64,000 bases of DNA from Spinacia oleracea (taxonomy: Eukaryota > Streptophyta > Magnoliopsida > Caryophyllales > Amaranthaceae), in contig NC_079492.1 of NCBI RefSeq assembly GCF_020520425.1, forward strand, positions 106,613,157 through 106,677,156, written 5' to 3'. The translations under genes and the position numbers were made by a program. The stretch's first letter is position 1, and each line of letters opens with the position of its first letter. Of the stretch, positions 21,097 to 48,933 are shown piece after piece. The notes under the pieces were generated by a model. The model was not told the origin of the DNA and made no database searches. It worked only from the letters and a program-made list of their open reading frames with translations.

Positions 21097-21250
21097 CACT
21101 ACAAAAAAGAGGTACATATTGAGACGGAATTATTGTGACGGTCTAACAAAGAGTCGCAAGGAAATTGGGGCGCGAATATTAATTTGTAAATTGCGACGCT
21201 TTAGAGAGCCGCAAAATATTTCGACGTTCTAAAGCGTCGCTATTTACAAA
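21097..21250. repeat. CACTA-1 left terminal and sub-terminal repeats
   Basis: The 12-bp terminal repeat (21097-21108) is followed by several copies of variants such as GTGACGG, TGCGACGCTTTAGAG and CTAAAGCGTCGC. In En/Spm such sub-terminal motifs bind the element's second protein. Confidence 0.85.
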
Positions 21251-23600
21251 AAAAAAGACACGTGTGTTGCACGTGTTTGTGAGGCAGCAATGCAACTGAA
21301 TTTTTGGGCAAAAAATCCCGCCTAACTCTCTGTTTTTTTCGCAGAATCCCGCCTAACTCTCAACCCACCTCCCACGTTTCTCTCAACCTCCTCCCACCGA
21401 CATACCTTGCTGAAACTAACCACCCTCGTCAGATTTCCGATGAATTCGTATCTCTCCTCCTCACCTTCAGCACCGGCCATTAACGAATTCCATGAATTCC
21501 GTCTTCAACCTTTACGTTAGCAAAGTCAAATCTCCCAGTATAAGCTATCTCACTCCTCATCCTATAAATTCATGAAAAATCCCAATTATTGAATTCACAA
21601 TTCGCTCAACAAATTCAAGATAAATTCGTTGCTCTCTCTGGTTTTTAATTGGAGAAATTCAAGCATACTCTGGTTTCTTAATTGCTGCTTCATCCTCGGT
21701 GTTGCCGGATATATTCGCCAGGTATTTTTGGTCTGCTTCACGCCTTCACTATTTGATTTTTATCATATAACAATGTTTAGGTTTGATTCACTATTTTAAT
21801 TTCCGTCATATATTGTTAATTCACGTTTTTTCATGTCAATTTCTAATGTCAATCATATGCCTTTAAGTTTTCCATGTTATATTGCATCCTTAATTCAAGA
21901 AAAAAAACTAGAATGGGTCTTCTTAGTTTCTGTGATTTTCTATATACCGCTTACAGAGTGTTTGCTATTTCATTTATTTTAGTTTTCAATTGCAGATAGT
22001 TGGTAATTTGGACGATAGTTGGAAAGTGGTGAACGTCTGACTTCTTCTTCCGTGTTGTTACTACTGTAGGTATTGTCTATCTATTTCTAATTTTCATAGT
22101 TTTAAATTTGCAACTTTTAGTTGGCCTAGAATCTTTGAAATTTGGATACATGGCAATGCTTTGTATAAAGACACACAGACATTTAGTGAGATTTAGGTGA
22201 TAATCTCTGACCAAGATATCTGGTACTTAGTATGAAAAATCTGTTGTCAATCTTTAAGACACCTAGCTGTACTTGGTTAGTTTAGGTTGTCTTTAGTGAG
22301 AAACTTGGTGCATCAAATGAGCATGTTGGATGAGTTTGCAAAATTATTTGTCGCTATAAAACTTATACTAATTATTTGAACCCTTTCACTTAGCATTTTC
22401 TACTGTTATCTATAACTTCTTTTGAGGCTACACTGTTTTCTGTGACTGATTATGTGAAATGTGTGACCGATGGACTGACTGTAAGTAGAAAAGAACTGAA
22501 CAAACTTTGCACAAAACAGAACTGAGCTTTACAAAGCAGAACTTAGTATTAGGCGACTGATAAGCTCATTGTCTGTCTGTCATCGTTATGTTAAGCTACT
22601 GCATGCTTTCTATATGTCATAACTGTAGTATTAGGTAGTGGCAGTGTATCGCAGTGTTAAATATCTTATCTTATCAGCACTTTGCTTGTCTTTATTATAA
22701 ATTTCTTTGCCTTTCCCTGCTTTAGTTGGCACCAAATATAGGTTTGACTACCAGTTGTATGGAGTAAGGAATAAACCTATGCAGTAAGCACCCTAATCTG
22801 AATATATGCAGTTCAAAACACAGAGAAGTGAGAGTAGCTTTGAACTATAGCTTAACCGAGTTAAGGGATAGAACATCCGGTTTTGATTTTTGAACTGTCA
22901 TAGCTGGGATGATAAACTCAGATAACCATTTCTGAGTTTCTATCATCCGGTTTTGAACTGTCATAGCTAACCAAATATTATCTTATCAGCACTAGCTTAT
23001 TGTTTATCTGGGTTTATCATGCCAAGTTGAGAGTAGCTTTGAACTATAGCTTATCATCCGGTATTATTTATCTGAGTTTGCAAAATTATTTGTCACTCTA
23101 GAAAGATCAAGCGCCAACTGGTGGACAACCTTAAAAGCTAGCTTCTTCCTTCGATTATCAATGAGGTATTTCTTTAGGGCACCTCTAGGAAGATATTTCA
23201 CAACAACACATCAGATATTACTAGGGATGCTAATTAGGCCACTTTCTGTTTGTATTTGTAGTCCTGAGGCCCCCATCTTTGCCCCAATAAACTGCAGCAT
23301 GCATAAATGGTTTTTATGACTACGAGCTTTGATAATAACATATCAGTTAGTTTCAACATGTATCGAGTTAAAAGTAACAGTAGCAAATTTTTGAGATGGA
23401 TGGTTTGGCTACACTTTAGGTTCTATTGTTAGAAAGAACGACATTGTATTCTTCTGTTGAATTATTTTGAACTTGCGAGTAAGGGTTTATGGAATTATGG
23501 TAAAGAGTCGTTACCTAGCTTTTTTTAGTGCTTCTCTATAGAGCTGTTTAGAATATTTTTTATTACATACCTGAACTTTTTATCTCTATTGATTTTAGAA
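21251..23600 (+). other. CACTA-1 5' region, no gene; probable promoter and leader
   Basis: No supported coding. Short scrambled duplications occur, e.g. GAGAGTAGCTTTGAACTATA at about 22829 and 23027, and TATCTTATCAGCACT at about 22667 and 22977. It lies upstream of the transposase. Confidence 0.5.
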
Positions 23601-23603
23601 AAT

Positions 23604-23822
23604 AGATCATGCATTACATGACAATAGATCATGCATTACATGACAATAGATCAGTCCTAGGCTATTTACGACATAGAAAATAGATCAGTCCTGCTCTGAT
23701 CAATCCTGATCAGATCAGTCCTGATCGGATCATTCCTGATCAAATCAGTCCTAATCAATCCTTACTGATCCATCCTGATCAGTTCTGATCAGTTCACTTC
23801 TGATCAGTTCACTTCTTCTCCT
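23604..23822. repeat. TGATCAG-rich repeat cluster 1
   Basis: It begins with a doubled ATAGATCATGCATTACATGAC, then a run of GATCAGTCCT-type units, and ends with two copies of TGATCAGTTCACTTC followed by TTCTCCTG. The part from 23668 to 23822 is a shorter version of 24473-24757. Confidence 0.85.
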
Positions 23823-24472
23823 GATTTGTGTTGGTGTTGTTTAGGTTTAATTACTTTATCCCACACATAAATAATGTAATTGGAATTGGAAAACATCCCA
23901 ATTTATGTTGGTTTGCTAATATAACTATCGAACCTTAACTATATACATCATGTGTTGCGCATAACCGGGAAAAAATGGGAAACATTAACAGAAAACATTT
24001 TAGAGGCTATGCAATTGCACCGGATAGGAGTGTTTCACTAAATCAGTTCAAGCTCAATCATAAGATTATCGTTCTATTTGAATAACTCTATTCTTAACAA
24101 ATTAATAGAATCTAATCCAAAATTGTGATTACTATTCTTATTTCATTATTCAAACAAACACTATCTAAGAGCTTAAGAAGTGGAGTAATACATACTGATT
24201 GCTACGGTGTACAAGTTATAAATAATTGATCGTGGAATTGATGAGTCGTAATAGAAGAGTAATCTATAATGACTAATATTTAGATTAGACATAACAAGGT
24301 AGGATTAATATTATTATAAAACTTTTGGGAGTCTTTTTAATTATGTGTTGTGTTCTGTCAACTTCCTTAAATATGAGATAATATGGCTGCTTAATACGGA
24401 GTATGGTGATCACTTTTGAGTAATAAATGGAATAGCTAGCTTTCTATGGACTGTGACACTTGCACTCTCAGA
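23823..24472. other. CACTA-1 spacer between repeat clusters
   Basis: AT-rich, no gene or clear repeat seen. Confidence 0.5.
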
Positions 24473-24757
24473 CGACATAGAAAATAGATCAGTCCTGATC
24501 AGATCAGTCCTGATCAGATCAGTCCAGATCAGTCCTGATCAGATCAGTTCTGAAAAGTCCTTACTGATCAATCCTGATCAGTCCTGATCAGTTCACTTCT
24601 GATCAGTTCACTTCTGATCAGTTCACTTCTGATCAGTTCATTTCTGATCAGTTCACTTCTGATCAGTTCACTTCTGATCAGTTCACTTCTGATCAGTTCA
24701 CTTCTGATCAGTTCACTTCTGATCAGTTCACTTCTGATCAGTTCACTTCTTCTCCTG
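24473..24757. repeat. TGATCAG-rich repeat cluster 2 with 11-copy 15-bp minisatellite
   Basis: Opens with the same GACATAGAAAATAGATCAG as cluster 1. From 24585 to 24749 there are 11 head-to-tail copies of TGATCAGTTCACTTC, one of them with a C-to-T change, then the same TTCTCCTG end. Cluster 1 has only two copies. It ends about 1.4 kb upstream of the TNP2 start codon. Confidence 0.9.
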
Positions 24758-25116
24758 TCCCTCTACGTTCACCACTATCTCCTTTCTCTCTCCTCTGGTA
24801 TTTTTGTCGCCCCACAATAACGACTTTCGTAAACTCAATTGCTTGATCCCCTTATCGCGGAGTAGATTGCAGATAATATTTGCTTTTACTTTCCATGTAG
24901 AAAAAATACCCTTCTTTGACCTGCGCTTAGCACATTGCTTCCCTACATTTGTTCATTTTCATGGAGCATTCATGGTCATGAATTGATATGTTTGTAGTGT
25001 TTTCTGTTTAAGTTGATAACTTCATCTACTATATTTTTTAGATTTTAAATTCCTGATAATGTTGTTGTCCTTATATTTTGACCATAATTTATCAACATTA
25101 TCAGGTTTCGCCGACC

Positions 25117-25255
25117 ACACCGGTTCAAGGTTTCCTGTGATTCTTTAGCGTTGTTCGTAGGTTCGTGCATCAGTTCGTACGTTGCTACACCGGTTCAAGG
25201 TTTCCTGCAAGTCTTTAGCGTTGTTCGTAGGTTCTGCATCGGTTCGTACGTTGCA
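25117..25255. repeat. 70-bp tandem duplication
   Basis: Two adjacent copies (25117-25186 and 25187-25255) starting ACACCGGTTCAAGGTTTCCTG and sharing TTTAGCGTTGTTCGTAGGTT, with a few substitutions and a 1-bp gap. Confidence 0.85.
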
Positions 25256-26131
25256 TATGCTCTTTGATACTAGAGGTATGTATACTATAAAGTCCCTTTT
25301 AGGTTTTTTATTGGACAATTGTTATTTCCCTAATTTTGTATGGACAAGGGTGGGCTACAACTCTGCAAGTTAGGTTTGTTAAGTGTTAGAATATAATTTC
25401 CGTGGCTTTACATTTCCTCGATGTCCAATATATATACAATGAGCATATACCGACGTTTATTGTGCTATCATAACTTACGTCAATCATGCAAAAGTTGGAT
25501 CTTTCTATTGTATTCTTGTTGATTTAATTTCAAATGTTTTGATATAATAGCTTTCAATTTGTAAGTACGTATTTTTGTTAGCTTTGGCATTTTGTGTTGG
25601 TATTGTTTGTCTAATTACATTATCCCCACTACATAATTTTGCTTAGCTTAATTACATTTAATCCAAGAAATTTTACCATAAATTCTGATTATGTGATGCC
25701 ACGTTACTTAAGGTACTCTTACTCTTTTTAAAAAATGGATTTATATTGTTGTCTTCGTGTGAAGTTGAAAATATCACCTTGTGCGCTAAAATCACATGCT
25801 TTATTTTCCTTGCAAATTCATGTGAAGTTGAAAGTATGATCTTGTACGCAAAAAGAAAATATAATATGGAAGTGATATAGGGTAATAACTTTTAGAAGAT
25901 GAAGATAGATCACAAATATTAGTCACTAAGGAAGAAAGATTAAACAAAAAACCATAAGTTATGGTATGAATTAAGAAGAGTTGTGTACGGAGGTGTTATG
26001 TGACTTAAATTAATCTCGTGTGATATATCAAGGTTCTAAGAATGATTATAATATTTTAATAAGTACATATAAAAATTTCCTATTCTGCGACCGACGTATA
26101 TTACTAATTACTCAACTAATTTCGTATAGAT
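25256..26131 (+). other. Leader region upstream of TNP2
   Basis: AT-rich; no separate gene seen. Probably holds the TNP2 promoter or a 5' UTR intron. Confidence 0.45.
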
Positions 26132-29100
26132 ATGGATAAAAGTTGGATCGATCTACCCACTGGTCATCATGAATATATCGACGGTTGTATGGAATTTATT
26201 GAGTTTGCCAAGCAAGATCTATTCGAAGGAAAAATTAGATGTCCATGTAAGAACTGTAAGGTAGAGAAATGGTTCTCCGTAAATGAAGTGGAGAGGCATA
26301 TTTTGTTTAAGGGATTTTATAAGCCATATAAGGATTGGATTTTTCATGGTAAAGGGGATACGTTTCAGCGTATGTTTGAGAGTGATGGAGGGATTACTAG
26401 TGAAGGATCCCTTGATAACCAAAGTGGGTTTGTAGGTCGAGATAATATGGGAGGGCTATTAAGATCAGCATTTAGTGTTAATATGCCTCCCAATTGCCCA
26501 AATTTAGAAGCACGAGAGGATGATGAATGGATTGAGGAGCCCTTGGCCTATGACACAGATGTAGAATATGATTATTCTACAATAGAAGAAGATGTGACAT
26601 ATAAGAAGTTGCTTGAAGCTTCTGAGGAGAAATTGTACGAGGGGTGTATCAATTTTTCAAAGTTATCTTTTCTGTTACACTTGTTTCACTTGAAGTGTAT
26701 GAATCACTGGTCCATAGAATCTTTCAATATGTTGTTGAAGCTAATTCTAGATGCATTTCCTCAAATACTTGATTTTCCCTCTTCTTATTATTACAGTAAG
26801 AAAATGATAAAAGACTTGGGCCTTGGGTATGAAAAGATTGATGCTTGTCCGAATAATTGCATGTTGTATTGGGGTGAATTTTTAAAGAAAGACAAGTGTC
26901 ATGTTTGTGGTACATCGAGGTGGAAGAAAACTAAGGATAGGGGCAACGTTGTAAGTGATCAAGGTACGGATACTTGTAAGAAAGGTGTGCCAGCTAAGGT
27001 AATGCGATATTTCCCTCTTATACCGAGACTAAAAAGAATCTACATGTCATCATCAACAGCAGAAGATATGAGATGGCATGATACAGAGCGATTGGGTGAA
27101 GATGATAAGAAGATTTTAAGGCATCCTTCAGATGGCTTAGCATGGAAGGCATTTGATGAGCGTCACAGTGATTTTGCATTAGACCCTCGTAGTGTTCGAT
27201 TAGGTCTTGCGAGTGATGGTTTTAATCCTTACCGTTTAATGAACACCACTTATAGTACGTGGCCAGTGATGTTGATTCCTTATAATCTTCCACCATGGTT
27301 ATGTATGAAACCGTCTTCTTTCATTCTGTCCACGCTTATTCCTGGAAAATCAGGTCCCGGAAATGATATTGACGTGTATCTGCAGCCATTAGTGCATGAA
27401 TTGAAATTGCTGTGGACAGGGGTTGAAGCTTTTGATGCTTTTGCCGGAGAGAAATTTAATTTGCGTGCGGCTTTGCTTTGGACTATTAATGACTTTCCCG
27501 GCTATGCAATGCTCTCTGGTTTGAGCACAAAAGGTTACAATGCATGTCCTATATGCTTAGATTCCACGCCTTCTGATAGATTTGGGAGCAAGATTTGCTA
27601 TTGTAGCTATAGAAAATGGTTACCTGCAGATCACCCATATCGATGTCAAGGTGACAAGTTTTGTGAGAAGTTTGGAACTAATGAGTGGGGTAAAGCCCCA
27701 TCTCGTCCTAGCGGCACTGATATATTGAGGCAGCAAGAAAAGGTGAAGCATGTTTACGGAAAGTCGAAGGCACCACCGAAAAAGAGGCAAAGAGGACACG
27801 ATGATGACGATGATGTCCAAGATGAAAGTGACTTTGGTACCAAGAGAAGCATATTCTTTGATTTGGTGTATTGGGAGCATAATCTTCTAAGGCATAATTT
27901 AGATGTGATGCACATTGAGAAAAACGTGTCTGAGAATATTTTGGGAACTCTTCTTAGCATGGATAAGAGTAGAGATAGTAGGAATGATCGAGAAGCCCTT
28001 GAAGCATGGAGAATAAAGTCTCACCTTTGGCTGAGTACTAATCCTAACGGAGGTGAATGCATGCCTCCGGCTTCCTATTCTATGTCTACGGAGGAGAAGG
28101 AGAGGTTCCTAAATGTTTTGCAGAAAATTAAAGTTCCTGATGGATATGGATCCAACCTTTCTAGTTGTGTGAATATGAAGCAAAGGAAGTTGATTAACCT
28201 CAAAAGTCATGACAACCATGTTCTAATGCAGGATATCCTTCCCGTTGCCTTAAGGGCCTCGAAAGCTACAAAAGTAATTGACTTGTTGGCTAGATTGTCT
28301 TCCTTTTTCAAGAAGTTGTGCTCTACAACTATTGATCCAGATGATTTAGATGGTCTTCAAAATGAAATTATTTTAACTCTTTGTGAGTTGGAAAAGGAGT
28401 TTCTGCCTTCATTTTTCACAATCATGGTCCATTTGTTGATTCACTTAGTGGAGGAGGTTAAACTTGGTGGACCAGTGCAATACAGATGGATGTATCCCAT
28501 TGAAAGGTTAATATCTTACACGTCTAAATTATATTCTTTTTATTTAATATTTCACATTTATCATATATTAAGTACAAATGTTTTATTTGAAAGGTACTTG
28601 TCCCATTTGAAATCACATGTAACCAATAAAGCCCAACCTGAAGGATCTATTGCAGAAGGCTTCCTTTTAGAGGAGACAATTAGGTTTTGTTCGAGATATC
28701 TTCAAGGTGTTAAGACCATTTTCAACATACCTAAAAGGATGGATGATGACATTCCAAATCCCAATGATTACTTGTTTAATTCTGGTGGTCGAGTTATTGG
28801 GAAGGAGGTCAGCATTCGCCTTGATGACAAAAGCTTAAAACAAGCTCATCGCTACATTTTGCTTCACTCTGATGAGATAAAAGGGGATCTGGAGTAAGTA
28901 TTATGTTGGTTTTCTTTTGAATTATCAATTGTTATAATAGATGATTTTTAATTTTGTTCTTCTTCCATGAAGTGAATTTTTAACCGAGAAACGTCAAATG
29001 AACTTACAAAATCCTGTCACGGAGAGTGATGAAAGTAACTGGATCATCAATGAGTTTGGAGGGTGGCTGCAAAATAAGGTTACTTAAGTTCTTTTAATGT

Positions 29101-29666
29101 GAATACATACTTCTTTTAAAAAAAAATGTATTTGATTTAATGATGTATCATCGTAGGTACATTACATAGATGCAACCACCGAAGATGGGAAACTAAGAAA
29201 AGCTTTGGCGGGTGGTTTGCATTCTTATGGTAGAAAATTAAAAGGATACATAATCAATGGATACAAATTCCTTTCCACGGATCGCGATTCTCGTCTTTTG
29301 ACACAAAATTCTGGAATTATGGTCGAAGCGGATGGAGATGCCTACTATGGAAAAGTGAAAGATATCTATGAATTTGATTATTACGGAGATTACAAAGTTG
29401 TATTGTTTCGTTGTGATTGGGTAGACATTCATAGGGGTGTAAAAGCATATCCAAATGGCGGAGTATGTGTCAATTTCTCTAAATTGATGCATTCTGGACG
29501 ATTGTTGCAAGATGATCCATTTGTATTCTCATCTCAAGCAAAACAAGTTTTTTACATAGAAGATGAGATACAAAAGGGATGGTTGCATGTTGTTAAGAAC
29601 AAGCCTAGAGATGTGTTTGATTTAGGGGATTCTTTACCAGTAGAGGAAGAGGGTGGGACCAATTGA
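26132..29666 (+). CDS. TNP2: TNP2-type CACTA transposase, four exons, intact
   Basis: Exons by eye: 26132-28506, 28594-28893, 28973-29078 and 29157-29666, all GT-AG and in frame, giving about 1096 aa. The 87-nt first intron has no stop, so it can also be read through; splicing restores PIERYLSHLK, the family form. Residues 1-75 are the transposase-associated domain (MDKSWIDLPTG, CPCKNC at 37-42, HG end). The TNP2 core follows with FPSSYYYSKKMIKDLGL, SDGFNP, WTINDFPGYAML and HNLDVMHIEKNV; the Asp residues in SDGFNP and INDFPG are plausible catalytic acids. A DUF4218-like segment (PSFFTIMVHLLIHLVEE, RWMYP) and a C-terminal DUF4216-like domain (YYGKVKDIYEFDY, LFRCDWVD) complete the usual order. 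It cuts and pastes the element in the nucleus. No frameshift or stop was seen. Confidence 0.93.
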
Positions 29667-30722
29667 TCATGCTTATTATTTATTGTTTTGCTTTGGATTT
29701 GTATTTGTTCATGACGTTGTGAGTCATATTGTTTAATCTGGTTGAATAATGAGTTATATACTTAATCTATACTCACTTATTTTATTGTCTACTAATGTCC
29801 AAGTACCCTACTACTAGTTTCTTTGATGGTGATACAGATATTTTTATACCGTTATTCCGTGAAAAGGGGGCAATTTATCTTTATTTTTTGTGATTTCCCC
29901 CTTTTGTATTTGATTTGATTCATGTTAACAATTAACAATGTGCATCCACCTCTTCAAAGCTGCCATTTACTACTATACTAAGCTGCTGGATCACCCATTG
30001 GATCCTCTTTCTATGTCTTTTGACTTTGAGAATCATATGTGACCACCGACTTTATATAATTATAGCTAGCTTTTTTCAAGCTTCTCTAAGCTCATTTGTA
30101 TTGTAATATTGATCCTTTTATCGCCTGTTTTCTCTCCTATGGAATGTATAACTCTCTTGATAATCATTTTCTTAAAACTACAGGCTCAGGATATTACTGA
30201 TTTAGGCTCTCTGAATCAAGCAGCAAAGATCTTTATTCTAGGTATGGTTCCCCTCCTTTCTTTTCAAAACAGAATGGGGAATAACTAATAAGGTAGCCAA
30301 ATCATTTTGTTAATACAAGTCAGACATGCAACTGTTGCTTGATGTTGTTTTGCTGGTTCACAGCTTCCTGATTTGTTTGATGACTTGTTTTAGATTGTTC
30401 TTTAGCTTCTTCCTGGTGCCATGATAATATAAAAATTGAGAGTTTTCACTGTAGTCTGAATCTCAGAAAAGGAGGGTGTAGCAGGTTCATCTTGCCCTTT
30501 CCCTCATAACTGTAGAGCAAAAGTGTAGTAAATGAGTGTAGGCCAACTAAAATATTGCTTATAACTTCAGTCTAAACTACACCCAAAAAAAAGGAAGTGT
30601 GCCAGCTATGAGATCATCTCTTTGATCCATCGGAACTGAAAAAATTGTTTTTTGGCAACTGACAATAAGCTAGCTAGCAGATTTCTCAACCAAAACAGTT
30701 AAAATCAGAAATTGAGAAAGTA
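29667..30722 (+). other. CACTA-1 spacer after TNP2
   Basis: TNP2 3' UTR and intergenic sequence; no gene recognised. Confidence 0.5.
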
Positions 30723-30858
30723 CCTTGAGCTTCTTTTCTATATAGCGTGCATAGTCAGTCCACAAATCACTAGATATAGGAAACTCAGTGATAGCACGTT
30801 CATATAGAATCTGAACACGCGCAGGGTCACCTGCAGATTCTTCAAATTTCAAGTATCT
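30723..30858 (-). pseudogene. SART3: Captured exon of an HAT-repeat (SART3-like) RNA-processing gene
   Basis: A 45-codon stretch on the - strand beginning RYLKFEESAGDPARVQILYE and continuing through a second helix ending YIEKKLK. This is a half-a-TPR repeat of the kind in plant SART3/Prp24-type U4/U6 snRNP recycling factors. It is bounded by a 3' splice site (TTTCTGCAG) on one side and GTACTTTC on the other, so it was taken from genomic DNA with its introns, not from mRNA. It is antisense to both transposase genes. The rest of that gene is absent. Confidence 0.65.
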
Positions 30859-30879
30859 CTGCAGAAACAAAATACATGT

Positions 30880-31145
30880 TAAAACCAATAAAGGGATAAT
30901 TTGAGTTCAAGGGAGATAAACAAAATTCTTGCTACCCTCATTATCTTGATAGCTTCCTGTTCGTGCACCCAAAGATGTGAGATCAATCCCTCCAAATGCC
31001 ATCCATCACCCTCCTCATTCCACCAAGCTGCTACACACTCATTCGCATCCACATTCGTAGGGGCCATAGTGCTAATTCGACCTCCAGGGAGATTTGGTAG
31101 CCACCTGGAGGTTGGTTGTTTCCATAGTGCTAATATCTTCACTTT
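30880..31145 (-). other. Unidentified open stretch beside the SART3-like exon
   Basis: An 87-codon - strand frame. Its middle (MAPTNVDANECVAAWW, then WHLEGLISHLWVHEQEAIK) looks protein-like but I do not recognise it. It may be another piece captured together with the HAT exon. Confidence 0.35.
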
Positions 31146-31626
31146 CTGATAATATCTTCAGTGCATTTCCGTTAGTTGTTTCCTTTCTGGTTTGCCTTCT
31201 CTATCTTGTTTCGTGCTTATGCTTGTAATGTGACAGGTTATAATGAAACTTAATAAAGGGATGAACGGAGCAAAAGGCCTTCCAATATAAAGTTTTCAAG
31301 TTCCTTGAAGGTTTCAGACTTTTGAGTCTATGACTTGTATATTCTAGACTCTAGATCACTCAGTGAGCTAACGACCAATTAGAGCCAGGATGAATTTCTT
31401 TTTCTCAATCAGATTTGTACTTTGCTTCTATATTTACGGAGTTTTCTGCTCATTGTAATTCTTGTTTATGTGAAAATGTTAAACTGATTTAACGTGTATG
31501 ATTGTCACTTTGAGTGAATACCTATTATCCTATTTAGTGATTCATTCTTGTAGCAATTGAGTTGGTTTAATGACCTTTTTATTCATGGCTGATTGTGTTT
31601 CTTACTTTCTGAACAGGAACTAAAAT

Positions 31627-34600
31627 ATGAGTTACAGGACTAAAAGAACATTGGTAGCTATTGACGAAGGGTCGAGCATTGCTGCATCCAAGTCCCCAAA
31701 ATCTTCTGATCCATCCACCCAAAACTGGGGACCGTTCAGTCCTCCAACACTTGGAGTGTCACAGACATTTGGGACGGTATCACAACCCATTAAGCAACCA
31801 GTAGCTGCTAAAAAAACCATGGTTGCACCACAATCATCCTTGCCTCGGCCTACTTCCATGGTTTCAAAGCCACAACTGAAGGCATTATCAAAACCATCCT
31901 TTACCCAGACAAAACCATCCTCTAACCGATTACAACAACCAATTCCGCCCACTCTTACAGGAACAACACAAAGTAGATGGTATAAAGGACCTACGTTTCC
32001 CAATCTGACTGAAATTGCAACACAAAAAGCGTCAACACCGAATCCACACCAGCCTACTATGCAGCCTGTGTTGCAGCCTTTCAAAGCTACCTTGCAGCCT
32101 TCTTTGCAGCCTTTCAAAGCTTCCCAACAGCCTCAAACAGCTACCAATCAGCCTCAAAAAACTACCCATCAGCTTCACAAAGCTACACAACAGCCTCAAA
32201 AAGCTACACAACAGCCGGTATCTTCTTTTACAAGTGTCAAACCACATTTAGAGAAAAGAGCATTTGTTGCACCTTTGGGAGCAACAAAACATGTGATGTC
32301 ACAATCTCCTACACCACCAGACACCATGGCTATGAAAAAGAGAACCGGGAAGCAAGAAGGTCAGTTGCCTCCAACATACATGCATGTGAGTGAGAATGCA
32401 TTTCAACCTCTGCGATCTCCTCCATCCAATCAGGTTGAGAGTGAAGTTATGCCAAACTACAACTGGGACGAATTTGAAGAATCGGCTTCTGAGAGTGAAA
32501 ATGAATTTGATCAAGGAGAAGGAAGTGATACTGCTGTGAAGAAAGCAACACTTCGACATCGAATCATTATTCCAAATTGGCCAGAATCGAGGGAGTTTGA
32601 TGAGAAGGTGGAGGCTATAGCTATAGGTAAACATGTCTCTATATCAAATATGCAAACTGTAAATTATCGATCTTGGTGATTTTTTAGTCTGATTTAGCTC
32701 CTGTGACAGATGCTGATGGAATACGACATCTGGTAAAGGGACCAGTTCTGCCTCGAGACGTTTGGCATGATGCAAAGGGGTTCAGATACATTGTCAAGCT
32801 CAATGAATTCAACCAACCTATTCGAAAAGGTGGGAAGATCCTTGTGAGCTTCCTTGGAGATATTGCAAAAAATGATTCACTTTGTCCAGTGGGAGTCCCA
32901 AGTTGGCGTGCTGTGAACAATCAGTTAAAAACTAATGTTGTTACAATGATTCGGGTATGTGGATTTATTGTTCTTAACACTTATGTTAATTGTAGTTTTA
33001 TTTTAGCTTGGTTAACTGTGTAATTAGCTTTAAATTTATTCTGTTTCCATCTATGTTCATCAATCAGTTGCCCGTTTTTCAGGTTTTTATTTGGTCATGG
33101 GGGTTCCGACCCCGGGTTAAGTTTCTGCAGAATCACTAAGTTCACCTAGCTAGTTCTGATCAGATCAGTGCTGATCAGATCAGACAGATCAGTCTGATCT
33201 GATCTGATCAGAACTAGCTAGGCAAATTATTTTGTTAACATTGTAACTTAATTTTTCCTTTTTTTTTTTGAAGAAACATTTTGTGTTACCTGATGGACCT
33301 CTAGTTAACAAGGCACTAGTGATGCGTATTGACAAACCATGGAACAATCATCGATACAAATTGAAGAGGGATTTTTTCGCTCCAGTGAATAAATCTCGAG
33401 AAGAGAACTATGCCAACGTGCCTGATGGAGTGTCCACTAGGAGTTGGACGGAATTGGTAGATTATTGGCTTTTACCAGAGGCCATGGTTTGTGACCCCAA
33501 AATATCCTAAATTTAGTAAGTTTTATTTGTTTCACCTATATATGCTAACATTGGTTTCATGAAACTAGGAAAAATCTGAAATGGGAAAAAATGCTCGAGC
33601 TTTACAAGGAAATAAGCACAACAGTGGTGCTACAAGCTTTGCTAATCGAAGAGTTGATATGGTATGCTTTTCAACCTAGCTATTTGGTTTGTAGCATTTC
33701 AATTGCTATAGGTGCTAAGTCTAAAATTCATAAACAAATAAGAGTGATATAAAAGTCTAAAATTCATAAACAAATAAGAGTAATATTTACTCGTATATGC
33801 ATATCTAATCTCACACATAAGGACATTCTTTAGTTTTCTAATGTTAAAGTAGAGAAATGTAGAAAAGTTGGCTATGCGGGCAAATGGAATTGAAAGCAGC
33901 AGCTGGGAAAATCTTCCTACTTTCCGTTTCTGTTATAAACCATGTTGCAGAAGTATACATTATGTGACTCTTCAAACGTTTTGGAGATAGTTGTCCTAGA
34001 TTCTCATGAACTTAGAGCTTTTAGGATCAGGAAACGGGGTTACCTGACACTATTACTGTCAAATAGAGTCAACTTTTTAACAGGAACTAAGAAGTATGAT
34101 TCTGGAGGGTGGTCTGGGGATGGGAGCGGGTGTGCGTGGCTACTCCAAGTTTAAAGTAGAAAAAATCATAAAGCAGAGGCAATGAAGTCCATCTGCAGTG
34201 CATGAAGCTGCAAAAACTATTCAATTTAAACAACAAAGGCAGTATTTCATTCTATTACATTATCCCCATAAACTTAAGGCGATAAAAAATTGTTCACAAA
34301 GTTCTAACTAAAACTCAATAACAAAGAATAAAAATTATGCATAATTAAGCATAACTAATCATTATTCGATCTGCATTTTTACAACAAAAACCCTGCAATG
34401 ATAATCAATTAATTGTGAACGAAACATGTTTAGCTGTTAGTCTGTAGGTGTAGCCTGTAAATTACATTGTTGGTCTTAGTGAGAACAGATCAAGTAAGTA
34501 GCTGTTAACAGATAAATTGTTATGGAGATCTATGTTTGAGATAGGCCAGCAATTAATGGTTCTTGCATTTGCTCTGAACACACTAAAATGCAAATTCACA

Positions 34601-37316
34601 ATGAAATAACAAAGAGTTGATTCTGCTACGTATCCAATAACATATTCTGGTATTACACAAATGGAAGAAAAGTCATATACAGAGTAGTCATATATTCTGG
34701 GATTAGTTATCTTTATCTACTTTCTTGAAATCCAGGAAGCAACAATGGAGTTAGGGCAACTGTAGGCAGAAACTTTATCGGAGATGCGGCCTTGTGAGCT
34801 GCATATGCAAGTGAAAATGTCCCAACTTTCTCACTTGTTTCAGTTGATGATATTCCCAGCTATTGAAGTAAGGCTGAGACATCAAAACCAGCATTAATAA
34901 GAGCATAGCATAATGTAAATAAAATTAGAGATGATGTGAAGTGCGGCCTTGTGAGCTGCAAATGTTGCAAATCAACACCATTATTATTTCTAATTTGAGA
35001 TTAATCAAGCACAACAGCCTAAACATGACTAATTCAAGAGTAAATCAATTACACAAATTCAAACCTATCCAATCAACAAACAACCAACAACATTCCTTTC
35101 TCTATTAACATTTCAACCAAAATAACAAAGCTTCACCTCACCACCACCAGTCCACCATATAATTTATTCCCGAAATAATGTCTTTGATCCTTTAAAATGA
35201 GTTTTTGATAATTGGTCAAGCCATTCAGCACTAAAACTCACTAATTTAGCTAAATTCTAGCTGACATCAGAAGTTAACAACCAACTAACTAATATGGTTC
35301 TTTCCTAAACATCTCACTCGAAACCAATTAAGTATTCATTCAGCAAACCATATATGTTCCAGGAAATTCTAATCCCCTTCATGATGACATACATTGTTCT
35401 AGAACTTTTGATAATTGATCAAGCCATTCAGCACTAAAACTCACTAATTTAGCTAAATTCTAGCTGACATAAAAAGTTAACAACCAACTAATCCGGTTCT
35501 TTCCCAAACATCTGACTCGAAACCAATAAAGTATTCATTCAGGAAACCATATATGTTCCAGGAAATTCTAATCCCCTTCATGATGACAATACATTGTTCT
35601 AGAACTGAAAACCAACAGGAAATCCAAGCTCGCTAAAGGATATACAGAAGCCAAAATCAATAAACACAACAATAACAGAATAAAACGTATGTAAACGGCT
35701 GCAAGAACAACATACCATACAGAGAACATCCATGACACTCTTGGCCACCACTTTCAGGCAACAGCTTGACCCTAAACTTCTGAACTCCACTCTTAGCATC
35801 GGTATTCGACTCTGCCTTCGGCGCTGCCCTCACAACCTTCAAAGAGTTAGGCTTTTCCTTCTCCTTCTCCTTCTTATGAGGGGAAATCGGAACCCTATGG
35901 TGCCCGTGGGACAGCGTCGAAGTCGTCCAATTGGTCTGGGTTTTCATTTTATTTACTCACTTAGTAGTCAAATTATCTGTCAATGTTTACATTATCAGAT
36001 TATAAGAATCGACAGATTATCTGTTAGTCCTCTGTCAAAAGCATAGAGGCCAGCTGAGATCATGGGATTCATCAATGTCCATATTGATTTTAATTATTGG
36101 ATCATGTAAGATAAACTAAAAACAATGCAAAGAAAATGTACCTGCAAACAAGTTTGCAAAAACTTATTTACCTAATATCTTAATAACTAGAACTAATATT
36201 TGCCACTTGTTACAGAAACAAAACAAACTGAATACAGGTATAAAGCAACTATTGGCTGATATTTCTTCTGTTTATTATCTTCCCTGCATCTACAAGGAAA
36301 CGTACTCCTGAATTCCCCTTAGCCTGACACAATTAGCAGAGAGCTTGCTGATGTCACTGCCTCTGTTGCCGACTCTGTCACCCCTTGCAAAGTGGCAATG
36401 CACCCAGCAACCCTACTACGGGGATAACAACTCAAAGTGTTAAACAAATATAGTGATAGTCGGTTTAAGAACTTCAAAATTTTAGTTTTCAATTTATTTT
36501 TTTCCTGAAATTGCAGAAAGAGAAGAAAGGAGTGTTTAGCGAATTGGCATTTTTCAAATCAGTTTACGCCAAAGAAGATGGAAGCTTTAAAGAGGGCACA
36601 CTTCCTCATCAATTTGTGGTATCATTGCATTGAGCTAATTCTATAAATCAATCTTGTCTCTTGAAGTCTATTTATTTTTTTCTTTGCTTGTACATAGTAT
36701 TCTTGGTTAATAGATTTTGAGTGATCTTTTCATATTATATAACAGGAGGATGCCAACAAAAAGGTCCAAGAAAATCTTGCGAGTTCCTCTTCTTCAAAGC
36801 CCGTAATTGAAATTGAGAATGCAGTCTTTAATGAGCTCATGTATAAAGGTGAAGTACCTAAACGTCCTCTGAATTATGGATTTGGAGTGAAGCAAAGCGA
36901 CATCTTTGGAGTGGAAGGTTTGCTGAGGAAAGAAGGGTCAAGCTATGTTAACAACAATGCTATGGAAGTGGAGAACATGAAAGGTGAAATATCAGTTGTC
37001 AAGAAGCAAAATGAGGACCTTGCGCAACAAAATCAAGTTCTAAACACCAAGTTTGAAGAAACAACACAATCATTTAAAATGATTGCTTCTTTTTTGGGAC
37101 AAGTTTTGAAGGAAGTACGCAAAGGGAATGTTTCATCGAACCTTTTAGATGGTGCGGAATCAGCAATAAATATGGTTAGTTATTTCTGGAAAATATTCTG
37201 ATTGAGCATCATGTATCATTACCTGAAATGTGGCATATCTAATTTACATATTAAAATGCTTTTTGTAGATTACTGATGATTCTGGTGGCAATGGTGACAA
37301 CCAGGCCGAGAAATGA
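31627..37316 (+). CDS. CACTA-1 second gene, Transposase_24/Ptta-like, seven exons, intact
   Basis: Exons by eye: 31627-32626, 32710-32954, 33274-33486, 33569-33661, 36517-36618, 36746-37174 and 37269-37316; all GT-AG, phases match, giving about 709 aa. The first ~230 residues are Pro/Gln/Ser-rich with imperfect QPxKAT repeats. An acidic patch precedes a core with LPRDVWHDAKG, KLNEFNQPIRKGG, LGDIA, KHFVLPD and GNKHNSGATSFANR, which fits plant En/Spm-family proteins of PF03004. The C-terminal ~140 residues include a predicted coiled coil (EVENMKGEISVVKKQNEDLA). In En/Spm the equivalent protein binds sub-terminal repeats and aids excision. Intron 4 is 2.9 kb and holds foreign-looking sequence. 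Confidence 0.85.
33145..33222. repeat. Hairpin of TGATCAG-type sequence in intron 2 of the second CACTA gene
   Basis: Perfect 24-bp inverted arms (33145-33168 and 33199-33222) that begin CCTAGCTAGTTCTGATCAG, with a 30-bp loop also made of GATCAG units. It is related in sequence to the clusters near 23.7 and 24.6 kb. Confidence 0.9.
33662..35200. other. Large intron of the second CACTA gene, left part
   Basis: No gene recognised; AT-rich, with a small local duplication near 33717-33785 (GTCTAAAATTCATAAACAAA twice). Confidence 0.5.
35202..35606. repeat. About 203-bp tandem duplication in the large intron
   Basis: Two adjacent copies from TTTTGATAATTG to ATTGTTCTAGAAC, differing by about a dozen substitutions and short gaps. 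Confidence 0.85.
35657..35947 (-). pseudogene. Possible captured gene fragment, unidentified
   Basis: A 96-codon - strand frame with ATG at 35947. About 80 residues look protein-like, with VPISPHKKEKEKEKPNS and KFRVKLLPESGGQECHG, and a possible 5' splice site (GTATGTTG) after CSLYG. I do not recognise the family. It is antisense to the CACTA genes and lies in their large intron, like the other captured pieces. Confidence 0.4.
35948..36516. other. Large intron, right part
   Basis: A short - strand open stretch near 36320-36415 (VAGCIATLQGVTESATEAV) could be another captured exon but is unrecognised. Nothing else seen. Confidence 0.35.
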
Positions 37317-37812
37317 GACTTTGACACTATTGCCAAATGCAAGGTAATTTCATATGGAATTAATTAACTGCATTTCATGCTTTATAGATAAACTTATAGC
37401 TGAAACAAGCTTTATAGTTGTCGATTATTTATGGATGATGGTGAGATTAGAAGGTAGATGTTTAGATTTAGTATTATCATAATAAGGTATTATGTTGATA
37501 TTAGCTGAAACACGAGTTTGGTGTTAGGTCTGGGTTGTTAACAAACTATGGTTTCTGTTAGTTAATTTATGATGCTCCTTCTGTAACGCGTAAAGAAAAC
37601 ACAGTGTTAAATGTCAATCCAAGACAGCAGCGACTCCGACTTACTCTCCTGATAAAACCTCATTCGAACTCTGACCATGAGTGAGAGATAAGTCTGAAAT
37701 CAACTACTATAAAAAGTTTTAGTTGCCATAGAAATTGCTCATAGTATAAGCTTGTTTTCTGTTTGATTGACTTCTATAGTCTGTTTCATTTTTGGTCTGT
37801 TCACTCATAGTA

Positions 37813-38243
37813 CTATCTTAGAAAAATCGTATCAATCTGTTTTTCCTTATCCGTTTCTGGTTGTAACTGTTGCTTCGCCCTCTCAAAGTTGTCCACCATT
37901 GGAAGAAGACTCTCAATTACTTCTCCCTGTGCATCGCTTCGAACTGATAGTCTCTCTTTACCTGATCTCCTTCTAAAGTTATCAAAGTCAGCTTGCAGGC
38001 GGATAAATCTATCCTTTCCAGAAGTTATCTCTTCTGTCAAAGTTGATAATTTCTCAACCAACTCGTTCTTTTCTGTTTCTAGTCGGTAAACAGCGATCTC
38101 TATTCTGTAATGGTCTGATAATCCTCAGTTAAACAGCCTCCTTATAATATTTAGTGAGAGTTTCCACACTTTCCCACATATTCTTGGTACTTGTCTCTTC
38201 TTCTGTTTCCCCAACTTCCTCCTCTAGCATTTCCTCATCCATC
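37813..38243 (-). pseudogene. Captured GrpE co-chaperone fragment
   Basis: The - strand reads an acidic start (MDEEMLEEEVGETEEE), then after two small frame breaks near 38110-38130 the GrpE core: NELVEKLSTLTEEI, RLQADFDNFRRR, RLSVRSDAQGEVIESLLPMVDNFERAK. This is the hallmark of organellar/bacterial-type GrpE, the nucleotide exchange factor of Hsp70; plant plastid forms look most similar. The fragment stops at about 37813, before the C-terminal beta domain. Broken and antisense to the CACTA genes, it is a captured host piece, not a working gene. Confidence 0.8.
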
Positions 38244-38479
38244 TAATATCACCAGTAAAAAGAAAATCATAAGAAATGAATACCAATTACCAATAAATGA
38301 ATACCAAGTACAAATTCTTTAGCTATTGTACTTGTAAGCATCACTTGCTTTGCTTCTCATCACGCCTGAATATTATATCAAAGGAAAAAAGAAAGTTCTT
38401 GGGGTCTTAATCTAAATCTATAACTGACAAGAGGAACTAAACTCGAAAGATTAAGAATCTACAGCTTTGATAACATGAG

Positions 38480-38770
38480 AAAACTGAATCTGCTGCTACT
38501 GCTACTGTTGTTGGGGTCCTGATGTTGAGGTCCTGCTACTGCTACTGAATCTGAAAACTGAAAGTTCTTGAGGTCCTGCTGTTGTAGCTGCTGCTACTGC
38601 TCAGTCTTGGTGTTGCGTAGTTTTGCAGGTTTGCAGTCAGTCAGGCATACTGTTCTGCTCAGGCTGGCTTGCTGTTGTGCAGTTCTTTTGTGCAAACCTT
38701 GTGTTGTTCAGTCTGGTTCTGCTGTGTAGCTTGTTGGGCTGGTGTCTTGTTTTTTTTTTTTTTGGTTTTC
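38480..38770. repeat. CTG/CTA-rich low-complexity stretch
   Basis: Irregular repeats of CTGCTACTG and GGTCCTG, ending in a T run. No coding supported. Confidence 0.5.
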
Positions 38771-38818
38771 AAATGGGCAAGCCTGATAATTAAAGAAAGT
38801 CACAGTTTAAGCAGCAAG

Positions 38819-39157
38819 TTAATGAACATCAGAGGCTAAGGATAAGAAAGCCATTATGACTAAGGTAAGACTATATACCTTTTTCCTTCCTAACTTGTCA
38901 CCTAACCACCCAAAGATGAGTTGCCCAGCAAAGGTACCACACAAGGCCACATTCATGGGTATAAACCCTGGGCTAGTTGGATTTGGCTCAGTGTAATAGA
39001 GACGGCCTAAGATTTTGGTCACCACAGATATGGAGAAAAGCTCATAGACATTAGTAAAGAAGCCCATACCAAGAATCATGAAAACTTTCAAGTGGTACCA
39101 TTGTGTCTTTGCTACGTCAAGTACACTTAGCACTTTTAACTTTTGTCTCTTCGCCAT
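38819..39157 (-). pseudogene. PHT1: Captured N-terminus of a PHT1 phosphate transporter
   Basis: A 112-codon - strand frame with its own ATG. It matches the start of plant PHT1 proton/phosphate symporters: [29 protein letters not shown], then [23 protein letters not shown], the major-facilitator motif between helices 2 and 3. The family normally has about 530 aa and 12 helices; here only the first two helices remain and the frame ends after SLASDVH. Family-invariant positions are altered (for instance Asn for Asp in FFTDAYD). It is a captured and decayed exon, antisense to the transposase genes. Confidence 0.88.
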
Positions 39158-39441
39158 TGATTAGGAAGTAGGAACTAACCTTTAATTCATACAGGGAAAA
39201 AACAAGGCAAAAATCAAATATTAATGTTTAAAGTGTTATTATACAAGCATTGCAAATTTGTAAAAAATGACCTTTTATAAATCAAATTTTGCGAGTTTGG
39301 CTGGTGTCGTTGTAGAATGTTTTAGTGTTTTTTGTTTTTGCTTGGGTGCGGGCTGTGCTCCCTTAGCTTTTGTTTCCCTTGTTGTTTTCTGTTGGTTGTT
39401 GTTTGGGTTTCTTCCTTTGGTAATTAAGTTAGCTAATTTAC

Positions 39442-39446
<5 letters not shown>

Positions 39447-39510
<64 letters not shown>
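39447..39510. repeat. (AT)32 microsatellite
   Basis: Uninterrupted AT dinucleotide run. Confidence 0.95.
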
Positions 39511-39513
<3 letters not shown>

Positions 39514-39683
39514 TTGTTCATGTCTATATTTCTAATAGTCATGCATTTTTCCCTTGATTAATAGTTGATATTATTTTGAGAAGACGACTAGTAGTTAGGA
39601 TCAAGCTGGTTAGAATTACTGTTAATTTTCCCTTGATTTTATGGAATGTTCATCATACTATATTTGACATTAAATTTTCTTTG

Positions 39684-39758
39684 CAGATTATTGATGATTC
39701 AAGTGGTAATAGTAAATGTAGATCAAGAGATGAACAAGTTATCTTGAAGCTAAGCTAG
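39684..39758 (+). other. Second copy of the last exon of the CACTA second gene
   Basis: After TTTGCAG the sequence reads IIDDSSGNSK, closely like ITDDSGGNGD of exon 7 at 37269, and runs to a stop at 39756-39758. It could be an alternative terminal exon or the original one, with the GrpE and PHT1 pieces lying in the intron before it. Confidence 0.5.
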
Positions 39759-40055
39759 CATAACGATATGTTTACTTGTTCGTAGTCAGGAAGTTGTTTT
39801 TATTTAGTTTTGGACTATCTTGTAGAAAAAATGATAATGCTAGTTAGAAAGTTATTTTTGTTTTAAAATATCGCTTTTATTTCAGTTTGACTAGACTCTG
39901 CGAATTAATTTAATGTATAGATGATTTTTATCACTTTTCCTAAATTAACTACTTAAGTATATATGAATCATAGCAAGTTAATATGTTGCTTTAAGATATA
40001 TAGTGTACGTACGTAGTAAGTTAATGTATTTGATTATGATTAATTATCTATGGTC

Positions 40056-40058
<3 letters not shown>

Positions 40059-40118
<60 letters not shown>
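40059..40118. repeat. (AT)30 microsatellite
   Basis: Uninterrupted AT run just inside the right sub-terminal repeats of CACTA-1. Confidence 0.95.
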
Positions 40119-40122
<4 letters not shown>

Positions 40123-40129
40123 AAAATAT

Positions 40130-40592
40130 GATGCAAATTGTGACGCTCCAAAACGTCTAAATTATTATGTATATATGAAAAATAATATGATGCAAATTGT
40201 GACGCTCCAAAGGGTCTAAATTATTTTGGAGGGAATGGGGGGACCTCGCACGAAAGTGAACATATAGTGACTCTAATAAGAGTCTATATATTTCGGGTGT
40301 CTAAAGCGTCTCTATGTGGTTTATAGTGGCGGAAAAATGTGTCTATAAACGTGCAAATAGTGACGCTTTATACAGTCTAAATATTGCGACTCTCTATAGA
40401 GTCACTATATCCCAAATAGCGACGGAGAAATATGTCGATATTTTGCAAATTGTGACGCTCTAAAGCGTCGGTAAATAGCGGCAATGAAAATAGCGACCCT
40501 CTCCCAAAGCGTCGCTATGTGAAATAGCGACACTGTAGAGCGTCACAATTTGTCCCAAAAAGCGTCACAATGTGCCGCGTTTTTTTGTAGTG
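40130..40592. repeat. CACTA-1 right sub-terminal repeats and terminal repeat
   Basis: Many copies of GTGACGCTCCAAA, GTGACGCTCTAAAGCGTC and TAGCGAC variants in both orientations, ending in the inverted 12-bp repeat (40581-40592). Two adjacent copies of a ~60-bp unit (ATGATGCAAATTGTGACGCT) start at about 40128. Confidence 0.88.
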
Positions 40593-46669: not shown

Positions 46670-47738
46670 TCAGAAATGGTACAGTTTCAAGTGCGTCGCG
46701 TTACAGCTCCTTGGGATAGATGTACCGTCTTTATCAACCAGCTCGTATGCGCCATGACCTGTTCGTCTTATGATCTGGTAAGGACCTTCCCATGTCGGAG
46801 CCAACTTGCCGTGTCGAGGATCCTTCTTATTTGGAAAGACTTTGCGCAGAACCCAATCTCCTTGCTGAAATACTCGAACTCTCACATTCTTGTTGTAACT
46901 ATTCGCGACTGCTTGTTGGTAGGAAGTCATTCTGACCAATGCCGCTTCTCTGAGTTCGTCGACGGTATCGATGTCGTAGGCCAAGACTGAATCGTTCATT
47001 CCTGGTGCCATGAAACTGCTTCTTGTTGTGGGGAACTCGACTTCGGGAGGGATGACTGCCTCACAACCAAAGACTAAGGAGAAAGGAGTATGATTAGTCG
47101 CCGTCTTGGGTGTTGTCCTGTCAGCCCAAAGGATCATAGGTAATTCGTCTGCCCATCTTCCTTTGGCGTCGTCAAGGCGCTTCTTGAGGTTGTTGATGAT
47201 GATTTTTGCTAGACTCGTCTTGGCCATTTTCTTGAGGGTACCTTGGTGTTGAGGTGTGCAAGGTGATGTTGTACCTCCTGCAAAATTCTTTGGTTTTGTT
47301 GCTGATGAACTGAGAACCGTTGTCGTAGACGATCTCGGAAGGGATACCGAACCGACTAAGGACATTTCGCTTTATGAATGAGATGACCTCAGTATCTCGA
47401 ACTCGTTTGAATGCTTCCGCTTCGATCCACTTGGAGAAGTAATCAGTCATTGCCAACATGAAGACGCGCTACCCTGATGCTTGTGGTAAGGGTCCCACTA
47501 TGTCCATCCCCCACTTCATGAAGGGCCAAGGGGACAAGATGTCACAAGGTTGGTGAGAGATGGATGCGAACCGCTGGTAAGAGTCGCATTTCCTGGCAAA
47601 GGCAATTGCGTCTTTCTTCATGGTGGGCCAATAATATCCCATGGTAAGAGTTTTGTGGGCTAAGCTTCTTCCTCCGGCGTGGTTTCCACATTCGCCATCA
47701 TGTATGTTGCACAATGTCGACTCGATCTCGTATCCCAT
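46670..47738 (-). pseudogene. Gypsy B integrase
   Basis: Last part of pol. The zinc-binding module reads HDGECGNHAGG then KCDSYQRF, where the second Cys expected in CxxC is Tyr. The catalytic core has KWGMDIVGPLP (first Asp), YDNGSQF (second Asp) and YPQENGQDE (Glu). The C-terminal module (GDWVLRKVFPNKK, GKLAPTWEGPYQIIRR) ends at the stop 46670-46672. Breaks: TAG at 47469-47471 in a Gln position, and a frameshift near 47215; another frameshift near 47740 separates it from RNase H. The three acidic residues remain, but no functional protein could be made. Confidence 0.9.
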
Positions 47739-47739
47739 G

Positions 47740-48933
47740 GATTAAGATGAATCTAGAAGCTTTCATGCAGAAGGATTTTTCGTGGGTGACTCCAGGTGGG
47801 ATGGTATGGTGTTTGAGCCAGTGTATGTAGGGGTCGCGCCATGAAGGCACTTGAGTTAGTGGAGCTTGTTCGGTGATGGGTAGGTTATCTTTGGTGATGG
47901 TTGGGTACATTAAATGGACTACGGGGATGGTGGTGAACTTGGGTTTGATATTTGAGCCAAGGTTGGCTAAGGCGTCAGCCTGGGTGTTCTGATCTCTTGG
48001 TATTTGTTGTAGGGTGCATGAGTCGAACTTGTTGACGAGCCTTTTCGCTATTTCCAAGTAAGCTTGCATCTTTGAGTCCTTTGCTGCATACGAACCGTTA
48101 ATCTGACTGATAATCAATAATGAATCACAACGTACCTCGAGTCGGCGGATACTCATGTCGAGTGCTAGTGATAATCCCAGGATCAAGGCTTCGTATTCCG
48201 CCTCGTTGTTGGTAGCTTTGAACTCGCAACAGACAGACTGTACTATGGTGTCCCCTTGTGGCGACTTTAGCACAATGCCTAGGCCTGTCCCCCGTATGTT
48301 GGAGGAGCCATCAGTATGCAGAGTCCATGTCGATGAGAGTCCACCATCGGTTAGTATGTTGATTTCTTGGCCGACTTCGTGTTGGAGGCTTGGGTTGAAG
48401 TTAACCACAAAATCTGCTAGAGCTTGTGACTTGATGGCTGTGTGAGGTTCGTACTTGTTATCGTAACAACCTAATTGTATTGTCCATTTGGACATCCTGC
48501 CAGATAACTAGGGTTTCCTCATGATTGACTTCATGGGATAGTTAGTTCTAACAGTTATAGGAAGACATTCAAAATAAGGGCGCAATTTAACGGAAGCAAC
48601 AAGTAATGCAAGGAGAAGTTTTTCAAGATGGGAGTACCTCATTTCGGCGCTAAGTAGAGACTTACTGATGTAGTAAACAGGTACCTGTCTGTCGTCTTCT
48701 TCTAGTACTAGTACTGCGCTGATGGTCGACTCTGTGACTGCAAGGTATATCTGTAGTTCTTCATTGTCTTTTGGCTTGGACAGTAGCGGAGGGTTCGACA
48801 GGTACTGCTTGAGTTGTTGTAATGCAGCTTTATGTCGATCGGTCCAACTGAACTTCTCGTTCTTCCTGAGGATGTCGTAGAATAATTTGCACTTGTCGGA
48901 CGACCAGGAGATGAAGCGGTTGAGAGCAGCCAC
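47740..48933 (-). pseudogene. Gypsy B RNase H and second (archaeal-type) RNase H
   Basis: First unit (48933-48508): RNase H after RT, with ELQIYLAVTESTISAVLV, VPVYYISKSL and EMRYSHLEKLLLAL. Second unit (48495-47740): a separate RNase H fold with LHTDGSSNIRGTGLGIVL, NNEAEYEALI and LEVRCDSLL, keeping the D-E-D acids. This double arrangement is known from the Tat lineage. A TAG at 48508-48510 stands where Gln is expected between the two; the frame is otherwise continuous. Confidence 0.88.

Follow-up and report, generated by a model that had tools for sequence, protein, structure and literature searches.

The window analysed here is the whole 64,000 nt stretch of the spinach (Spinacia oleracea) genome presented above, located on contig C6 of the 894-Mb assembly of 242 contigs that was searched. 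It contains a complete CACTA transposon of 19,496 bp on the plus strand (21097–40592). The terminal inverted repeat (TIR) CACTACAAAAAA starts at 21097, TTTTTTTGTAGTG finishes at 40592, and a TTA target-site duplication (TSD) flanks both ends. Consistent with the traits of the CACTA superfamily, TIRs starting with CACTA were present in the window element and in all ten other copies examined, the 3-bp TSD was perfect in seven of these ten, and a TNP2-type transposase was detected (Pfam Transposase_21, E 8.7e-84). The TNP2-type transposase gene (26126–29666, +) includes Transpos_assoc, Transposase_21 and DUF4218 domains, with DUF4216 in a further exon. A TNP1-like second gene (31624–37319, +) was delimited from open reading frames with exon borders set by eye; one of its exons matched Transposase_24 weakly (E 0.00036, under the curated cut-off). 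The last exon of this gene was found at 37272–37319 (+) and again, with its acceptor site, as a diverged second copy at 39689–39735 (+), the local alignment score of 45 between the two being reached by none of 1000 shuffles. Judged from its long open frames, the element appears to be an autonomous-type CACTA.

The cargo of the element comes from at least five host genes, namely a SART3/PRP39-like gene, FAM210, a FREE1-like FYVE gene, GrpE and PHT1. All five pieces lie on the minus strand, against the plus-strand TNP2 and TNP1-like genes. The FAM210 and FREE1-like pieces are inside one intron of the TNP1-like gene, and the GrpE and PHT1 pieces are between the two copies of its last exon. An earlier note, made from the sequence alone, had claimed at least three host gene fragments, antisense to the transposase genes, within an otherwise complete CACTA element. 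Matches in Pfam and the PDB together with the intact termini and TSD bear this out, the antisense orientation holds for the five identified pieces, and a FAM210 piece at 34400–35020 had been missed. The closest loci outside the element were located for all five pieces on several chromosomes: GrpE on contig C2, SART3 on C3, FAM210 on C5 or C2, PHT1 on C5 and FREE1 on C6. In the underlying DNA searches the best 40 candidates were scored, out of 766 for PHT1, 64 for FAM210/FREE1 and 49 for SART3.

The GrpE fragment (37821–38298, −) was identified by matches to GrpE in Pfam (E 1.2e-13, 37816–38124) and the PDB (E 7.7e-9, 37813–38121). Its donor is the host gene at C2:114152.8–114153.3 kb (locus L044), which has a 175-aa frame with a C-terminal exon nearby and differs from the window piece by 3.3% substitutions; the match at C2:114152900 was considered as a transposon copy and rejected, being this host gene. 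The captured piece includes donor intron sequence upstream of the exon. At one related locus (L040), about 695 bp of other sequence occupies the place of GrpE. Read by eye, the left junction of the piece has 14 nt of filler, and the right junction in the copy L046 passes from donor to L040-type sequence over a short ATTT-type overlap. The 695-bp sequence of L040 is itself mosaic-like, with one part 92% identical to C5:1.40 Mb.

The PHT1 piece (38833–39293, −) comprises the 5' region and start exon of a phosphate transporter gene, with 38819–39157 matching Inorganic phosphate transporter 1-11 in the PDB (E 7.7e-32). A copy of AG stands on each side of its 461 bp, so that the filled site is 463 bp longer than the empty one, which reads straight through as ...GAACATC/AGTTTGG in two loci (L042 and L043, 98.8% alike over the 1,682 bp compared). 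The filled site has CAG at one junction in common with the donor. The nearest locus (L039, C5:98964.9–98965.3 kb) is a pseudogene, its coding sequence being spread over three frames, and is 86% identical by DNA with gaps and diverged by 5.5% substitutions. The insertion aligns to it well as far as 39239 and weakly from there on. Elsewhere in the genome, nine PHT1-like phosphate transporter matches form a cluster at C3:10.09–10.22 Mb.

The SART3/PRP39-like piece (30436–30922, −) is an exon with intron on both sides; the exon at 30723–30858 matched HAT_PRP39_C (E 3.3e-10, query 30673–30906). Longer pieces with an exon-intron-exon arrangement are present at L051 and L058. The latter (C3:54544.2–54545.2 kb) is the closest locus seen outside the element family, with 1.4% substitutions from the window piece and 2.8% from the longer L051 piece, although too little of it was seen for it to be called an intact SART3 gene. 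Another candidate for the host gene, C6:66505178–66506640, was rejected as a further CACTA copy. Because introns are present in the GrpE and SART3 pieces, both are of genomic-DNA origin, and the claim of capture from DNA stands on the donor 5' intron of GrpE and on the exon-intron-exon structure of the longer SART3 copies.

The earlier note had also listed two unnamed candidates, one of which (35657–35947) proved to be host-derived. The other, 30880–31145, is probably derived from a long interspersed nuclear element (LINE) and not from a host gene. The probable LINE remnant (30926–31145, −) has an open frame that continues in L051 into a zf-RVT-like stretch, absent from the window copy, which matched PF13966 at E 7.3e-5 and 23.8 bits, under the cut-off of 27.5. 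A loose resemblance of 30880–31145 to an upstream SART3 exon was rejected because the L051 frame runs into this stretch.

The FAM210A/B-like fragment (34400–35020, −) matched PF06916 on two parts (E 5e-8 and 0.0012). Its substitution divergence is 7.1% from a broken paralogue at C2:59015 kb (L048) and 10.2% from the intact host gene at C5:29542 kb (L049), whose FAM210 domain was detected at E 7e-27. The neighbouring FREE1-like piece (35203–35942, −) consists of exon 1 and intron sequence of a FYVE protein gene, holds a tandem duplication of ~200 bp and derives from the donor region C6:72.24–72.25 Mb (L047, L054, L056 and L057), with a divergence of 5.7%. Within it, 35657–35947 matches exon 1 at L047 (C6:72.25 Mb) with 87% identity by DNA. 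This segment had looked unidentifiable because the terminal 70 nt of the piece (35873–35942) are a perfect match to the gene but inverted relative to it, with a 9-nt overlap. A FYVE finger was found in L057, about 8 kb downstream of the L047 exon 1 (E 1.1e-10), the exons being joined into one gene by eye; judged by its sequence, this donor would be FREE1. The possibility that 35657–35947 was the first exon of FAM210 was rejected, as the donor is another gene, one that encodes a FYVE finger. Three FAM210/FREE1 copies were also seen at C6:75.854–75.890 Mb with a spacing of about 17.2 kb, perhaps a tandem duplication, and one of them (L055) differs from the window element past 36138.

A further stretch (23067–23342, −), with one stop, was noted by eye as a possible Raf-like protein kinase fragment. 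Pfam gave a kinase match of E 0.13 only and no kinase was among the PDB matches, so this identity could not be proven; its DNA matches (best 40 of 67 scored) were all at least 99% identical. Arrays and a palindrome of GATCAG-like units lie within the element at 23681–24765 and 33133–33222. An exon-like stretch at 30184–30240 (+; AQDITDLGSLNQAAKIFIL) with AG/GT borders by eye had no Pfam match and is also found in L051. Outside the element, open frames at 46670–48507 (−) resemble, by eye only, a Ty3-type retrotransposon polyprotein.

To describe the spread of the cargo, its matches were linked into 63 groups across the genome. With 40 candidates scored in several of the searches, the counts are lower bounds, and blocks may be missed in individual groups. 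Five blocks were tested: the kinase-like region (its identity unproven), SART3, FAM210 and FREE1 as one block, GrpE and PHT1. At least 24 groups, the window included, hold all five, with the FAM210/FREE1 match only partial in two of them (C6:49.67 and C6:98.20 Mb), confirming that the same cargo recurs in other copies. The other 39 groups hold one to four blocks; among the 63, one group merges the three copies at C6:75.85–75.89 Mb and one is the GrpE donor gene. The GrpE piece alone had 37 genome matches, including the donor gene and the window. The loaded element has been mobile, as ten copies chosen from the 24 full groups all had both termini and different flanks. Over 37.3–39.4 kb, the mean pairwise difference among 30 aligned sequences was 0.41% (435 pairs, one of them zero as the window is present both as itself and as L028), whereas L038, excluded from this set, is 2.0% away.

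Shortened relatives were also found. In the copies at C5:97.05 Mb (L005/L016) and C6:135.60 Mb (L027), position 25.0–25.1 kb is joined to 36.7–36.9 kb, such that GrpE and PHT1 are retained despite deletion of the transposase region. A 6.4-kb relative (L042/L053, from L053:1192 onward; C3:22.391–22.397 Mb) has CACTA ends with AAC on both sides, and no stretch matching the window transposase genes was found in it. The cargo region of L042 seems to be pieced together from several loci.

These observations are best explained by a CACTA element that probably took up host DNA repeatedly, by break repair with template switching, and was then amplified. Repair of breaks or gaps within the element would have switched to unrelated loci elsewhere in the genome as templates, each event patching some 0.2–1 kb of host DNA, introns included, into the introns and intergenic spacer of the element. 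The short microhomologies, the filler and the inversion fit repair of this kind. Judged by how far each piece has diverged from its nearest locus, FAM210 (7.1 or 10.2%), FREE1 and PHT1 would be the older captures, and GrpE and SART3 the younger. A recent burst of ordinary cut-and-paste transposition would then have multiplied the loaded element, with the cargo as a passive passenger. The simplest reason for the antisense orientation would be selection, as exons or poly(A) signals lying in sense could interfere with the TNP transcripts. From template-switch repair to this selection and the order of most captures, the scheme is one that we infer.

Stepwise capture is indicated by the relatives with an empty PHT1 site together with the PHT1-bearing relatives that lack GrpE (L040, L041 and L045). 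PHT1 and GrpE are thus not an ancestral part of all related CACTA elements, a possibility that the earlier note had raised against itself. The empty sites, whose evidence on order covers these two pieces, suggest that PHT1 was most likely captured before GrpE, in agreement with their divergences of 5.5 and 3.3%.

Several points weigh against this reconstruction. The microhomologies are short and two of the junctions were read by eye. The FAM210, SART3 and PHT1 parents are the nearest loci seen and not proven donors, and the order of divergences may mislead. It is likewise by inference that the L040 arrangement is placed before the arrival of GrpE. SART3 occurs in groups without GrpE, alone in eight and with the kinase-like region in two (C2:39.66 and C3:65.80 Mb), as well as with FAM210 and FREE1 in one group and with these and the kinase-like region in two more; its low divergence is therefore no proof of late capture. 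Five of five pieces in antisense is weak evidence for a bias (two-sided p about 0.06), and L042 carries a sense-oriented SpoU rRNA methylase fragment (L042:94–474, E 2.3e-19), showing that cargo of the wider family need not be antisense. From the duplicated last exon of the TNP1-like gene it would seem that the 3' part was also shaped by recombination between elements or by hybrid excision.

Hybrid excision, in which neighbouring elements with complementary end deletions move as one and trap the DNA between them, has a modest chance of being the general explanation. It would account naturally for a TNP1 last exon with acceptor present twice, at 37272 and 39689, on either side of the GrpE/PHT1 region, and for the segments 37475–37579, 38588–38832 and 39294–40592 shared with the 6.4-kb relative. 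The PHT1 piece, on the other hand, lies within otherwise continuous element sequence, its empty site is without transposon ends, GrpE replaces other sequence, and the closest parent loci are spread over several chromosomes. Hybrid excision may account for the last-exon duplication, but not for the PHT1 insertion. It is very unlikely that nested transposons, such as a Helitron, a Pack-MULE or a retrotransposon, brought the pieces into the CACTA element. The probable LINE remnant beside the SART3 piece suggests that other mobile DNA did enter, but GrpE and SART3, with their introns, cannot have come in by retroposition, and the borders of PHT1 show only the 2-nt AG repeat, with no terminal repeats seen and no dedicated Helitron search made.

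Template-switch capture with passive cargo can be set against three possible functions of the pieces. The earlier note had proposed that the antisense pieces give small RNAs against parent phosphate-transporter or chaperone genes, and the broader idea, that small or antisense RNAs would silence or buffer the parent genes, is unlikely to be right. All five pieces lie in antisense within or next to transposase transcription units and exist in many near-identical copies. Shared exact 21-mers with the host gene are frequent for GrpE (257 of 458, intron included, with a longest run of 129 nt) and fewer for FREE1 (150 of 720, longest run 77), so that silencing of the GrpE host gene would be possible in principle. 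FAM210, in contrast, shares 78 or 82 of 601, and the GrpE frame is intact in two of 31 sequences (the window again counted also as L028). For PHT1, the nearest locus, sharing 151 of 441 21-mers, is a pseudogene, and the six other PHT1 loci that were compared, out of 11, all with open frames in the stretch retrieved, share 0, 0, 0, 0, 2 and 0 with the fragment. On this basis, silencing of phosphate transport by the element appears implausible, and that part of the proposal is not upheld.

That the cargo instead encodes proteins used by the element is extremely unlikely. L038 and L046 have an intact 143-aa GrpE frame with ATG, and 28 of the 31 sequences retain the PHT1 frame; the GrpE frame from the ATG is not intact in the other 29, the PHT1 piece is a membrane-protein stub without 21 nt present in L039, and an open frame in copies this young does not imply selection. 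We also hold it quite improbable that the cargo acts as camouflage, whereby antisense pieces of housekeeping genes (GrpE, FREE1, SART3 and FAM210) would restrain host silencing of the element. Were this true, silencing RNAs aimed at the transposon would also strike needed host genes, which could help to explain the recent burst; some of the GrpE co-chaperone, FREE1, SART3 and FAM210 genes are presumably essential.

Gene capture by CACTA elements is already known in kind, and the present case is unusually well resolved. The nearest parallel, in the same plant family, is Jozin of Chenopodium, a group of coding CACTA-like elements with captured Neprosin and AP2 fragments for which the authors refer to the Rubin and Levy mechanism (PMC8978399). 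In the Jozin cases described, the fragments lie 5' of ORF1 and come from one gene family per element (PMC8978399), whereas the window element holds pieces of at least five genes 3' of its TNP2 gene; for this cargo the nearest parent loci were located, an empty site was seen and the captures could be partly ordered. Tgm-Express1 of soybean is made up of five fragments, exons and introns of five host genes over 5.7 kb, and is spliced into a host gene transcript (PMC1947982); the spinach element differs in being full-length, with transposase, and in its antisense cargo. It resembles the Pack-CACTA or Pack-TYPE elements, in which CACTA termini mobilise captured coding DNA and which are defined as non-autonomous (PMC8903248, PMC13317346), in having such DNA between CACTA ends. 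As TNP2 domains are present it was not filed as a Pack-CACTA, although shortened relatives exist in L042 and in the C5:97.05 and C6:135.60 Mb copies.

On mechanism, the hybrid-excision model was put forward for Pack-CACTA by Catoni et al. 2019, as reviewed in PMC13317346. For animal Pack-TIRs, gap-filling and FoSTeST models have been proposed by authors who leave the plant Pack-MULEs open (PMC8277862). Those animal elements and the present plant family are alike in short microhomology, de novo insertion at a breakpoint, internal breakpoints and later amplification (PMC8277862). Among the papers listed in a literature search on spinach CACTA elements and gene capture, none was recognised as a description of this family.

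The finding corrects the idea of a cargo that regulates phosphate transporters and establishes a full-length, transposase-bearing element as the carrier of five host-gene pieces. Whether TIR elements in plants capture genes by hybrid excision or by gap repair is still argued, and this family supplies evidence that is usually missing: the nearest parent loci are located, a site free of cargo and an intermediate stage survive, some copies have longer cargo, and the burst is young. Both the mechanism and the tempo of capture thereby become directly testable.

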